This document shows, piece by piece, positions 16,794 to 58,707 of a stretch of DNA of 64,000 nucleotides. The stretch spans positions 1-64,000 of the forward strand of contig NZ_FUZQ01000007.1 in NCBI RefSeq assembly GCF_900167525.1, given 5' to 3'. The notes beneath the pieces were generated by a model. That model ran no database searches. It saw only the letters and a list, made by a program, of their open reading frames with translations, and was not told where the DNA came from. A program made the position numbers and the translations under genes. This DNA comes from Krasilnikoviella flava. Lineage in GTDB: Bacteria; Actinomycetota; Actinomycetes; Actinomycetales; Cellulomonadaceae. Position 1 is the first letter of the stretch. Every line of letters starts with the position of its first letter.

Positions 16794-17158
16794 GGGGCTG
16801 ATCGGTTTCGACGGTGGTCGTGCTTCGAGGAGAAGCGGGCCGAGGATGCAGGCTCATCTCGTGAACGCTTGCCTGCAAACCTATAGGTGCCGATAACAAG
16901 CGCACCGACTTCGCCCTCGCCGCCTGAGCGAGTCTCGAAGTCCGTGAGCCCGGGATTGCTCTCGACCCGGTAGCTCACGTCATCTAGAGAGCCACTGCTC
17001 GCCGCCCTCGTCACCGGGGCGGCGGGGACACCTAGGTGACTGGGCCCGTCCGCACCTTGTCTGCGTGAGTGCGGGGGCCGAGAAAAGCACAGCAGACTGC
17101 GCCCGGAGAAGTCCTCGAAAGGCGCCACCGGACCCGGGTTCGATTCCCGGCAGCTCCA
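16794..17158 (+). ncRNA. ssrA: Transfer-messenger RNA (tmRNA)
   Basis: The 5' end GGGGCTGATCGGTTTCGACG and the 3' TΨC arm/acceptor (GGTTCGATTCCCGGCAGCTCC) form the tRNA-like domain; GGGGCTG pairs with CAGCTCC. The tag frame starts at GCC (16889) and encodes ADNKRTDFALAA before a TGA at 16925-16927; ALAA is the degradation tag. CCA is not encoded. A TAGACT hexamer at 16723-16728 is a possible promoter -10. The gene is intact; no integrated element follows it although this 3' end is a common integration site. Confidence 0.96.
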
Positions 17159-17161
17159 CCC

Positions 17162-55002: not shown

Positions 55003-56040
55003 TCAGCCGGCCGACGTCGACAGGGAGCCGTCGGAGCTGAATACCAGGCCGAGGGTGATCTCGCCCTTCTGCAGCGCCGCCTTGGTGAGCGGGCCGCCGG
55101 CGTCCAGCGAGCGGAACTCGGAGAACGTCAGACCGTAGGTGTCCTCGAGCCCGGGCTGGCAGAACGGCCGTTCGGTGCACTCCGGCCCGGCGCCGAGCAC
55201 CAGCCCGCCGCAGGCCTCGGCGAGGTCGCTCAGCGTCGTGAGGTCGTGCTCGGTCGCGAACGCCTGCGTGACGGCGAACGCGTTCTGGTCCTGCGCCGGG
55301 GACGGGGTGCCGAAGGCCAGGCCGGCCTGCTCGCCGAGGTCGGTGAGCGCCGTCATCGTCGCGTCGAGGTCGCCGCTCGCCTGCGGCTCGGCGTCCGCTC
55401 CGTTGAGGTCCTTGTTGAGGAACTCGGTGAGCGTGCCCACGTACTCGGGCACCATCTGCACCTGGTCGCCCTTCAGCAGCGCGGGCAGGTACGTCTCGCG
55501 GTTGCCGATCGTCGTGACGGAGGCGTCGTAGCCCGCGCTCTGGAGCACGTCGGCGTAGATGTTGCCCAGGGTGGCGCTCTCGGCGAAGTCGGCCGCGCCG
55601 ATCGCGACCTTCACGCCCTCGCCCGCCGAGGCGTCGTCGGCCGCGAGGCCGGCGTCCTCGACGAACTGGGCGGCGACGTCCTCGGAGGTCTTGCGGTCGA
55701 TGTCGACCGCCTTGTTGAGGCCGATCAGCGTGTCCGTGTCGAGCGCGGCGGACACGGTGTCGAGCAGCGGGATCAGGTCGGGCGCCTGGGACGCGAGGTC
55801 GGCGTTGACCGCGGGGACGATGTTGTCCACGGTCTGCAGCTTCTTGTCGTCCTCGAGCACCACGAGCGCGTCGTCGGGGACGGCCTCGCAGGTCGCGGCT
55901 GCGGCCGAGGCGGTGGACGTGGAACCGCCGCCCCCGGCCGAGCCGGGGTCGCCGCAGGCGGCGAGCAGCCCGCTCGCGCCGACGACGGCGGCCAGCGCGG
56001 CCGTCGTGCGACGCAGGGTGGTGGTGCGGTGGGAGGTCAT
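55003..56040 (-). CDS. Glycine betaine/choline-type ABC binding lipoprotein with circularly permuted domain order
   Basis: 345 residues. Signal peptide with lipobox LLAAC (C29). After a Gly/Ser spacer, residues 51-132 (ALVVLEDDKK ... DTDTLIGLNKAVDI ... AAQFVEDAGL) match what is normally the C-terminal part of OpuAC/OpuBC-type binding proteins. Residues 144-345 (VAIGAADFAESATLGNIYAD ... VPEYVGTLTEFL ... ITLGLVFSSDGSL) match the normal N-terminal part, ending where LVVLEDD should continue. The protein therefore looks circularly permuted. It should bind a betaine-like osmolyte for the two permeases encoded upstream on the same strand. Confidence 0.85.
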   Translation of the reverse strand: MTSHRTTTLRRTTAALAAVVGASGLLAACGDPGSAGGGGSTSTASAAAATCEAVPDDALVVLEDDKKLQTVDNIVPAVNADLASQAPDLIPLLDTVSAALDTDTLIGLNKAVDIDRKTSEDVAAQFVEDAGLAADDASAGEGVKVAIGAADFAESATLGNIYADVLQSAGYDASVTTIGNRETYLPALLKGDQVQMVPEYVGTLTEFLNKDLNGADAEPQASGDLDATMTALTDLGEQAGLAFGTPSPAQDQNAFAVTQAFATEHDLTTLSDLAEACGGLVLGAGPECTERPFCQPGLEDTYGLTFSEFRSLDAGGPLTKAALQKGEITLGLVFSSDGSLSTSAG

Positions 56041-56164: not shown

Positions 56165-56881
56165 TCACCGCCGGGCGGACGCCCGCAGGGGAGCCGGGGT
56201 GACGAGCCGCTGCACGACGGCGAAGACGCCGTCGAGCACGAGGGCCAGGGCCGCGACCAGGACGCCCCCGGCGAGCACCTGGCCGTAGCGCTGGGTGCCC
56301 ATGCCGAGCGCGATGATCTGCCCCAGGCCGCCGCCGCCGGCGAGCGCCGCCAGCGGCACCGTGGCGCTGACCTGCACGACGGCGGTGCGCACGCCCGCCG
56401 CGACCAGCCCGGTGGCGAGCGGCAGCTCGACCCGGGTGAGCACCTGACGACCCGGCATCCCGAGGCCGACCGCGGCGTCGCGCGCGGAGGGGTCCGCGCC
56501 GCGCACGCCCTCGTACGTGTTGACCAGCAGCACGGGCGCGGCGAAGAGGGCGGCGGCCACCACGGTGGCGCCGTCGCCGAAGAGGCCCGCCGTGGCGAGC
56601 AGCAGGATGATGCCGAGCGTCGGGACGGCGCGGCTGGCGTTGGTCAGCCAGACGGTGACGCCGCCGCCCCGGCGGCCGTGGCCCAGCCACGCGCCGACCG
56701 GCAGGGCGACGGCCGCGGCGACGAGCACGGCGGCGGCCGTGAGCGCCAGGTGCTCCCGCCCCAGCTCGAGGATGCCCCCCGGCCCGGTCCAGCTCAGGGG
56801 GTCGTTGAGGTAGGCGATCGCCTGGCTGACGACACCGGTGTCCTGTGCCATGGTCACGGGCCCGGTGGCCGCGGCGCTCAT
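56165..56881 (-). CDS. Betaine-type ABC permease 2
   Basis: 238 residues, about five helices. ProW/OpuB permease features: SRAVPTLGIILLLATAGLFG, the EAA-like AVGLGMPGRQVLTRVELPLA and a Gly-rich LAGGGGLGQIIALG. It begins with ATGA overlap to the first permease, so the two are coupled. An internal ATG 10 codons in (MAQDTGVV) is an alternative start. The binding-protein gene follows 124 bases later on the same strand. Confidence 0.88.
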   Translation of the reverse strand: MSAAATGPVTMAQDTGVVSQAIAYLNDPLSWTGPGGILELGREHLALTAAAVLVAAAVALPVGAWLGHGRRGGGVTVWLTNASRAVPTLGIILLLATAGLFGDGATVVAAALFAAPVLLVNTYEGVRGADPSARDAAVGLGMPGRQVLTRVELPLATGLVAAGVRTAVVQVSATVPLAALAGGGGLGQIIALGMGTQRYGQVLAGGVLVAALALVLDGVFAVVQRLVTPAPLRASARR

Positions 56882-57552
56882 GCGGACCTCCCGCGCAACC
56901 ACGGCGTGAGCGCGCGGCCGGCGGCCCACAGCACGAGGTCGAGGACGAGGGCGAGCAGGACGCAGGCGATCGTCGCCGTCATGATCTCCGCCCGGTAGAA
57001 GTTGTTGCGGAAGCCCTGGAACATCAGCTGGCCCAGGCCGCCGTAGCCCACCACCACGCCCACCGTGACCAGCGCGACGGTGGTGACGGTGGCGAGCCGC
57101 AGCCCCGCCATGATGCTCGGGAGCGCGTTCGGCAGGCGTACGCGGGCGAGCACCTGCAGGGGCCCGTGGCCCACCCCGCGGGCGGCGTCGACCGCGGCGG
57201 GGTCGACGCCGTCGAGGCCCGTCACCGTGTTGCGCAGGATCACCAGCAGCGCGTAGAGCACCAGCCCGAGCAGCACGGGCTGGCGGCCGATCCCCATGAT
57301 CGGCGCGAGGATCGCGAACAGTGCGAGGGACGGGACCGTGTAGAGGATCGCCGCGGTGCCGAGCAGCGGCCCGGCGAGCCAGCGCACCCGGGAGGCGAGC
57401 AGACCCAGCGGGATCGCGACGAGCGCGGCGATCGCCACCGCCTCGACCGTGAGCAGCGCGTGCTCGGTGGTGCGCGCCCACAGCACGTCGGCGTTCTCGG
57501 TCACGTACGACCAGGAGAACCACGGGTTGTCCGCGGCGGCGGTGCTGACCAT
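56878..57552 (-). CDS. Betaine-type ABC permease 1
   Basis: 224 residues, about six helices. Family blocks are YTVPSLALFAILAPIMGIG, ILRNTVTGLDGVDPAAVDAA, GVGHGPLQVLARVRLPNALP and VGYGGLGQLMFQGF. Pairs with permease 2 as the membrane channel. A TACGGT hexamer is 7 nt before the ATG (57560-57565 on the plus strand). It diverges from the ATPase gene; 96 bases separate the two starts and hold both promoters. Confidence 0.9.
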   Translation of the reverse strand: MVSTAAADNPWFSWSYVTENADVLWARTTEHALLTVEAVAIAALVAIPLGLLASRVRWLAGPLLGTAAILYTVPSLALFAILAPIMGIGRQPVLLGLVLYALLVILRNTVTGLDGVDPAAVDAARGVGHGPLQVLARVRLPNALPSIMAGLRLATVTTVALVTVGVVVGYGGLGQLMFQGFRNNFYRAEIMTATIACVLLALVLDLVLWAAGRALTPWLRGRSA

Positions 57553-57648
57553 GGGCTCGACCGTAGCGGCCGGGTCCGACGCCGTGCCGTGGGCCACCCC
57601 GGCGCGCCGCGGTCCGGGGTGTCGGACGGCGTGGATAGCCTCGCAGCC

Positions 57649-58707
57649 ATGCCCGCCCCGACGGACCAGTCCGCACCGCCCGCGTCGCCGCCCGCCCGGT
57701 TGACGACCGGCATCGAGCTCGACGCCGTCCGCAAGGCCTACCCGGACGGCACGGTCGCGGTCGAGGGGTTGAGCCTCACGGTGCGGCCGGGGGAGGTGCT
57801 CGCCCTGGTGGGGCCCTCCGGCTGCGGCAAGTCGACCACGCTGCGGATGATCAACCGCCTCGTCGAGCTCACCTCCGGGCGGGTGCTGGTGGACGGCGAG
57901 GACGTCACGCACGTCGACCCCGTCGCGCTGCGCCGCCGGACCGGGTACGTCATCCAGGACGTCGGGCTGCTGCCGCACCGCACGGTCGAGGCGAACGTCG
58001 CCACCGTGCCGCGGCTGCTCGGCTGGGACCGGCAGCGCGTGCGCGACCGCGTGTCCGAGGTGCTCGACCTGGTCGGCCTCCCGGCCGACCGGTACGGGCG
58101 GCGCTACCCGCACCAGCTCTCCGGCGGGGAGCGGCAGCGCGTCGGCGTGGCCCGCGCGCTGGCCACCGACCCGCCCGTGCTGCTCATGGACGAGCCGTTC
58201 GGCGCGGTCGACCCCGAGCGCCGCCGGGACCTGCAGAACCAGGTGGCGCGCATCCTCGCCGAGGTCGGCTCCACGGTGGTGCTGGTCACGCACGACGTCG
58301 ACGAGGCGGTGCGGCTCGGGGACCGGGTGGCGGTGCTCTCCCGCGGCGGGCACCTGGAGCAGGTCGCCTCGCCGCTGACCGTCCTCGCGCACCCCGCGAC
58401 CGACCGGGTGCGCGACTTCGTCGGCGCCGGGGCGCACCAGCGCATGCTCGCGCTCGCCGTGGTGCAGCGCGAGGACCTCGAGGACGCGTCGCTGGTGGTG
58501 CTGCCCGCGCCGCCCCCCGTGGCCCTCGGCGCCAGCCTCGCGGAGGCGTTCGAGGCCGTGGCCGCGCTGCCGACGTCGTCCCAGGGGCGGGTCCCGGTGG
58601 TCGACGACGGTGGTGCCGTCGTCGGCTCGCTCACCGCGGCCGGCATCCTCGGCGGGCTGCGCCGTGCCGCGGACGCCGCGGCGCCTGCCGTGTCGCCCGC
58701 CGACTAG
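57649..58707 (+). CDS. Betaine-type ABC transporter ATPase with C-terminal CBS-like region
   Basis: 352 residues. Walker A GPSGCGKSTTLRMI, signature LSGGERQRVGVARAL and Walker B LLMDEPFGAVDP are intact. The C-terminal ~90 residues (ASLAEAFEAVAALPTSSQGR, VPVVDDGGAVVGSLTAAGIL) form one CBS-like motif, the osmosensing type of region in OpuA ATPases. It serves the divergent permease pair. TAGCCT is 7 nt before the ATG. Confidence 0.9.
   Translation: MPAPTDQSAPPASPPARLTTGIELDAVRKAYPDGTVAVEGLSLTVRPGEVLALVGPSGCGKSTTLRMINRLVELTSGRVLVDGEDVTHVDPVALRRRTGYVIQDVGLLPHRTVEANVATVPRLLGWDRQRVRDRVSEVLDLVGLPADRYGRRYPHQLSGGERQRVGVARALATDPPVLLMDEPFGAVDPERRRDLQNQVARILAEVGSTVVLVTHDVDEAVRLGDRVAVLSRGGHLEQVASPLTVLAHPATDRVRDFVGAGAHQRMLALAVVQREDLEDASLVVLPAPPPVALGASLAEAFEAVAALPTSSQGRVPVVDDGGAVVGSLTAAGILGGLRRAADAAAPAVSPAD

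Follow-up and report, generated by a model that had tools for sequence, protein, structure and literature searches.

A circularly permuted OpuBC/ProX-type receptor in Krasilnikoviella flava and the recurrence of permuted orders in Actinomycetota

Can one and the same importer receptor occur with its two halves in either order, and if so, how often and by what route has the order changed? In nature, circular permutation is often deduced from a comparison of distantly related proteins. The question is raised here by a gene in the window, the whole stretch of 64,000 nucleotides from Krasilnikoviella flava that was analysed (contig NZ_FUZQ01000007.1, positions 1 to 64,000). A preliminary description of this DNA had proposed a betaine-type binding protein with a permuted order at this gene. 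We consider it very likely that the gene product is a naturally occurring circular permutant that serves as lipid-anchored receptor for an OpuB/ProX-type importer, and that it was produced by a rearrangement in place, of a kind that has been repeated in Actinomycetota.

Order of the two halves in the window protein

The gene, its strand and its ends were found as described before: a single open reading frame starting with ATG (Table 1). In a search of the organism's own genome with PF04069, residues 58–128 (55657–55869) matched profile positions 187–256 (52.7 bits, E 1.2e-13) and residues 144–341 (55018–55611) matched positions 2–184 (93.5 bits, E 2.9e-26). Both stretches exceed the family cut-off of 21.2 bits. 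The whole protein scored 145.2 bits in two stretches and belongs to the family, with profile positions 187–256 coming before 2–184 along the chain, against the N-to-C order of the profile. Similarly, phmmer against the PDB aligned residues 143–314 with residues 6–172 of Archaeoglobus fulgidus ProX (1sw1), and residues 58–133 with its residues 200–274. A profile of 28 relatives matched 27 distinct PDB sequences, both stretches being canonical in order in all five alignments listed.

Every part of the canonical domain is therefore found once, in rotated order, and these sequence comparisons confirmed that the window protein is a circularly permuted PF04069 (OpuBC/ProX-type) receptor. The swap had been assigned correctly, as the leading segment hits the C-terminal region of the profile and the following one the N-terminal region. 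The leading segment had been placed at residues 51–132; it does correspond to the C-terminal region of the family, but the match begins only at about residue 58. Nor does the protein stop exactly after FSSDGSL: it runs five residues further and ends in FSSDGSLSTSAG. Duplication instead of permutation, already discounted in the preliminary description, was rejected, since each half is present once in the profile, PDB and relative comparisons. By tblastn (E up to 1e-3), no second copy of either half was found flanking 85 permuted loci, among which the window was not included as a whole. A family definition that is itself permuted was also rejected, as 100 of 234 distinct classified proteins are canonical.

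No NCBIfam model matched the window protein above its cut-off, the best being OsmF with 88 bits against 400. The genome, assembled in 10 contigs (completeness 100, contamination 0.07), contains two more full-length PF04069 matches, both canonical and on a different contig.

Table 1. Features of the receptor and its neighbours in the window
Feature	Coordinates	Strand	Basis
PF04069 solute-binding lipoprotein, circularly permuted, P1 order, 345 aa	55003..56040	-	ORF and PF04069 search
Signal peptide and lipobox LAAC, lipid-anchor Cys29	55954..56040	-	lipobox read by eye
Cys51 codon, in the new N-terminal extension	55888..55890	-	alignment
aa 58-133, C-terminal segment in the family: second hinge strand LVVLEDD and C-terminal part of lobe I	55642..55869	-	PF04069 187-256, PDB match
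aa 134-143, linker from old C-terminus to old N-terminus	55612..55641	-	sequence
aa 144-340, N-terminal segment in the family: first part of lobe I, first hinge, lobe II; ends just past FSSDG	55021..55611	-	PF04069 2-183, PDB match
Cys277 codon, P1-specific candidate partner of Cys51	55210..55212	-	alignment
ABC permease 1	56165..56950 (upper bound, start not fixed)	-	BPD_transp_1 8.3e-16
ABC permease 2	56878..57687 (upper bound, start not fixed)	-	BPD_transp_1 2.2e-21
Divergent ABC ATPase	57649..58707 (start chosen)	+	ABC_tran 1.3e-36

The receptor is encoded together with ABC transporter components: two permease genes lie upstream in the same direction, and a divergent ATPase gene lies beyond them. 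ProX/OpuBC-type systems have such an operon of receptor, permeases and ATPase as well, and the window protein resembles A. fulgidus ProX and the OpuBC/OpuCC/OsmF-type receptors in both halves, in the hinge strand and in the lobe II motifs. It differs from them in the swapped halves, in several cage residues and probably in a lipid anchor on the lobe II side. The ergothioneine receptor EgtUC (PDB 9egh), which like the window protein is of the type II receptor family, has the canonical order (PMC9732360).

The gene product would thus be the lipid-anchored receptor of an OpuB/ProX-type ABC importer in which about ten residues of linker connect the former C-terminus to the former N-terminus and the new termini fall between the last strand of lobe II (FSSDG) and the second hinge strand (LVVLEDD). 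Most likely it would adopt the ordinary two-lobed fold and hand its ligand to the permeases encoded alongside. Two chain segments ordinarily contribute to lobe I; here it would consist of a single continuous one, and the lipid anchor would be attached on the side of lobe II.

As minor observations, the ATPase at 57649–58707(+) has a weak C-terminal CBS match under the Pfam cut-off, and elsewhere in the window a tmRNA gene was noted at 16794–17160(+), with the tag ADNKRTDFALAA.

Permuted orders among actinobacterial relatives

The survey of actinobacterial homologues that had been suggested was carried out on the best open reading frame of each of 308 loci, and proteins with identical last 120 residues were merged, leaving 234 distinct proteins. 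The order of the window protein, here called P1, was found in 114 of these, with conserved ends and linker across many genera, and the canonical order in 100; as the loci are search matches taken best first, these counts are not frequencies. Contig-edge loci L057 and L190 were set to P1 by hand, L179, cut by a contig edge, was reassigned by hand from P3 to P2, and the order labels of L181, L182, L281, L282, L298, L301 and L302 were also assigned by hand. The match in genome G308 carries an internal stop and was excluded from P1.

Of 18 genomes from the genus of the window (its own included), 5 have a full-length permuted match, 11 have matches split in canonical order and 2 have none. A full-length or contig-edge P1 match was present in at least 39 of the 297 genomes of the order (own genome included), while P1 was found in at least 15/345 genomes of the class sample and at least 2/396 of the phylum sample. 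Among named genomes, the best 80 of 443 relatives are all P1. They include Cellulomonas (25), Promicromonospora (9), Actinotalea and Geodermatophilus (8 each), Oerskovia and Demequina (5 each), Isoptericola (4), Myceligenerans (3) and others, the closest to the window protein being Isoptericola at 94–95%. The receptor L127 shares 68% identity with the window protein, as does that of Cellulomonas hominis; its contig bears the name Cellulosimicrobium cellulans and is possibly mislabelled. On named plasmids, 304 records matched the window protein, none of them covering 80% of it at a single site, and the best match (H1) is in canonical order. With a P2 protein as the query, 496 plasmid records matched and 335 reached 80% coverage, but pieces were joined in any order and the ten matches listed are two-piece, so that the 335 are not to be read as P2-ordered.

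Three further permuted forms were identified. P2 starts at the strand LVLGGPPEC and ends at SDLA (14 distinct proteins, one cut by a contig edge), and was found in at least 12/396 genomes of the phylum sample and at least 2/345 of the class sample. P3 (2 proteins) runs from FxPLDxGG to YGLxF. P3b, from a separate subfamily, starts at LDTGVIY or LDLGVIY, equivalent to the P3 start, and ends at HYGFxI (2 proteins). All three have the old C-terminus joined to the old N-terminus by a short linker, and in all three the Pfam match is likewise split into two stretches. The cuts were mapped by hand onto EgtUC (chain number + 229, anchored on Y443, N339, Y341 and Y419), which placed P1 at about 425–430, P2 at about 368 and P3 at about 397. 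Since D2 of EgtUC spans 341–432 (PMC9732360), all the cuts identified are within lobe II or where the chain leaves it. The lipid anchor, on lobe I in canonical receptors, should thereby end up on lobe II.

The importer setting is kept in the permuted forms. Where enough flank was available, permeases and ATPase adjoin the receptor in 69 of 74 distinct P1 loci, the full neighbour pattern being absent in the other 5, as well as in 9/9 P2 and 2/2 P3 loci. In the P3b subfamily, the order permease–ATPase–permease–receptor was seen in 7 of 8 loci, the eighth lying at a contig edge. Canonical genes share these settings: the neighbourhood of two canonical sisters (L287, L288) is the same as in P1, and the canonical orthologues of the P3b subfamily (L303–L312) have the same operon as P3b where it is visible, with the order of the receptor unpermuted. 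The dN/dS ratios were 0.11, 0.15, 0.15 and 0.23 in four P1 pairs, 0.07–0.28 in five P2 pairs and 0.37 for P3b; the P3 value of 0.995, at 53% identity, was taken as uninformative. The conserved operon place together with low dN/dS indicates that the rotated receptor is in use.

Origins of the permuted order

A tree of 76 rows was built with IQ-TREE after all proteins had been rotated to one register; 22 of 98 rows, which were long, near-identical or odd and included both fused proteins then known, had been excluded. P1 forms one clade (100/100) nested among canonical class-mates. The tree requires seven order changes, all forced by well-supported branches (one for P1, four for P2, one for P3 and one for P3b), a count that is blind to gain versus loss. 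AU tests rejected a single clade of all permuted rows (p 1e-60), of P1 with P2 (p 2e-115) and of all P2 rows (p 4e-75), and a common origin of all permuted forms was rejected on this basis. For the 11 main P2 rows, a group picked after the tree had been seen, one clade was only weakly rejected (p 0.019). The P2 clades lie close together in the tree, and given this weak split a conservative count, with every change read as a gain, comes to about six events. In a tree restricted to the part of the chain that no form interrupts, P1 was still one clade and eight changes were counted, of which starred branches force three; this tree is poorly resolved and does not join the P3b pair, which is joined in the 76-row tree at 80/95 and in 75% of bootstrap trees. 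The trees and AU tests thus show more than one origin of the permuted order. This goes beyond the preliminary description: the order is common to a large clade, and permutation has occurred repeatedly, at differing cut sites.

P3b is the clearest case of independent permutation. In its bacterial family, of which 35 genomes were searched, G498 and G625 are permuted and 10/10 fetched orthologues are canonical. The permuted proteins are 70–81% identical to these orthologues over the N-terminal part and 66–75% over the C-terminal part. Moreover, the P3b linker GDELSGAEITVGSKDF resembles the mature N-terminal spacer GDAALDGATITVGSKDF of the canonical orthologues, a pattern expected from duplication followed by loss of the ends. 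The P3b loci (L181/L301, L302) and the canonical L303–L312 make a good system in which to trace a recent permutation at the DNA level.

The receptor gene of an existing operon would accordingly have been rearranged in place, probably through a tandem duplication and subsequent loss of the outer parts, and similar events would have occurred several times in Actinomycetota at different sites of lobe II. As no degraded duplicate was detected by tblastn (E 1e-3) beside the 85 permuted loci, the duplication step is one that we infer. The halves could instead once have been separate genes that were rejoined in reverse order. Fission and fusion is among the general mechanisms acknowledged for circular permutation (PMC3320104), but a lone half was never the best open reading frame in the 308 loci, contig-edge cases aside and best frames only being considered, and the spacer-like P3b linker also speaks against it; we think this route unlikely. 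Much less probable still is a single ancient permutation behind all permuted forms, with the canonical proteins in between as reversions. The joined C-to-N junction is common to all permuted forms and the change counts do not tell gain from loss, yet a single clade fails the AU test, P3b sits within a canonical family to which it remains closely similar over its N-terminal part, and with differing cut sites reversion would require exact restoration again and again. We give hardly any credence to an assembly artefact or a decaying, broken gene as the source of the rotated order. P3 and P3b have each been seen in two genomes, and both P3b genomes are in ~270–290 contigs; P1, on the other side, recurs in its 114 distinct proteins with the same ends and linker, its dN/dS is low in all four pairs, the neighbours are mostly intact, and the window genome is of high completeness in few contigs. 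A lone or broken gene was rejected on the same recurrence, low dN/dS and intact neighbours.

What the permutation may have brought is less clear-cut. In our view there is about an even chance that the rotation drifted neutrally in a fold that tolerates it and that the moved lipid anchor or termini brought no advantage: the pocket residues of P1 and its canonical sisters are identical, and the operon setting is the same as in canonical genes. Against drift, no cut was found outside lobe II and its exit, and a cysteine pair fixed in P1 suggests at least a stabilising adjustment. A more tentative proposal is serial permutation, in which independent openings of lobe II were kept for transferring the anchor between the lobes, from I to II, and for leaving a free end of lobe II available to new fusions, altering how the receptor is presented to the importer or a partner, with a disulfide in P1 replacing the lost peptide bond.

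Cysteine pair, ligand pocket and related systems

C51 and C277 are both present in 114/114 P1 proteins. A cysteine at the position of C277 was found in 0 of the 97 canonical proteins aligned there, and in 0/7 P2, 0/2 P3 and 0/2 P3b proteins; any cysteine near the junction was found in 2 of 100 canonical proteins. C288 and C294, by comparison, are common to P1 and canonical relatives (73/100). C51 lies just ahead of the new first strand and C277 ahead of the strand LVLGAG. The two perhaps form a disulfide that pins the new N-terminal strand to lobe II, and this putative P1-specific bond would probably tie down a strand that has lost its peptide bond.

The label "betaine-type" was borne out as regards the family and not as regards the quaternary-ammonium cage, most residues of which are replaced. 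By hand mapping, F293, T296 and R379 of EgtUC correspond to Y200, T203 and R291 of the window protein, and Y443, Y341, N339, K242 and Y419 to D72, N253, D251, A150 and F334. Y200 and F334 are aromatic, N253 and D72 are not, the lysine is replaced by A150, and the threonine and arginine are kept, so that the aromatic cage with K/T/R carboxylate contacts of EgtUC (quaternary-ammonium, subcluster F-III) was not found in the window protein. In ten canonical relatives taken as sisters, D72 is present in 10/10, D251 in 10/10 and N253 in 9/10; for example, L207–L209 and L211 have the same pocket residues as P1 in unpermuted order. Being common to P1 and its canonical sisters, the pocket changes are older than the permutation. 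Our guess is a cation other than simple betaine as the ligand, and betaine itself may still be bound.

Permutation in the betaine-binding fold was already known. CPSARST detected in 2008 a circular permutation among the glycine-betaine-binding structures 2b4l, 1r9l and 1sw1 (PMC2395249). Both cases concern permutation within this fold group, but the structures compared there are less than 24% identical (PMC2395249), whereas the proteins described here are clear homologues in matching operons, permuted at several sites. In the literature searched, outside which most subscription journals lie, no report was found of OpuBC-type receptors that are permuted among the members of one orthologous group. 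The family described here is an unusually clear case of repeated permutation. Because the receptor is found in both orders in matching operons, with three cut sites and several independent events, it can be tested directly how well permutation is tolerated, by which route it arises and what the anchor-bearing lobe does in ABC importers. It is a natural test of how far the ends of a protein can move without breaking the fold. OpuBC-type receptors are already in use for sensor design (PMC13230610), for which the permuted receptors are ready-made scaffolds.

Two genomes, G339 (L164/L289) and G365 (L180/L243), each have a P2 and a canonical receptor on separate contigs. Finally, four genomes from three bacterial families encode fusions in which a P2-ordered domain is joined by a peptidoglycan-binding domain and a polysaccharide deacetylase. 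In L281 (4070–6352(-)) and L282 (4427–6505(+)), the three are encoded by one open reading frame each, upstream of which no recognised permease gene was found. The same fusion is present in L321 (2348–4348(+)) and L322 (1759–3759(-)), which are outside the 308-locus, 234-protein, tree, pocket and cysteine counts. These fused proteins are possibly ligand-sensing cell-wall enzymes.
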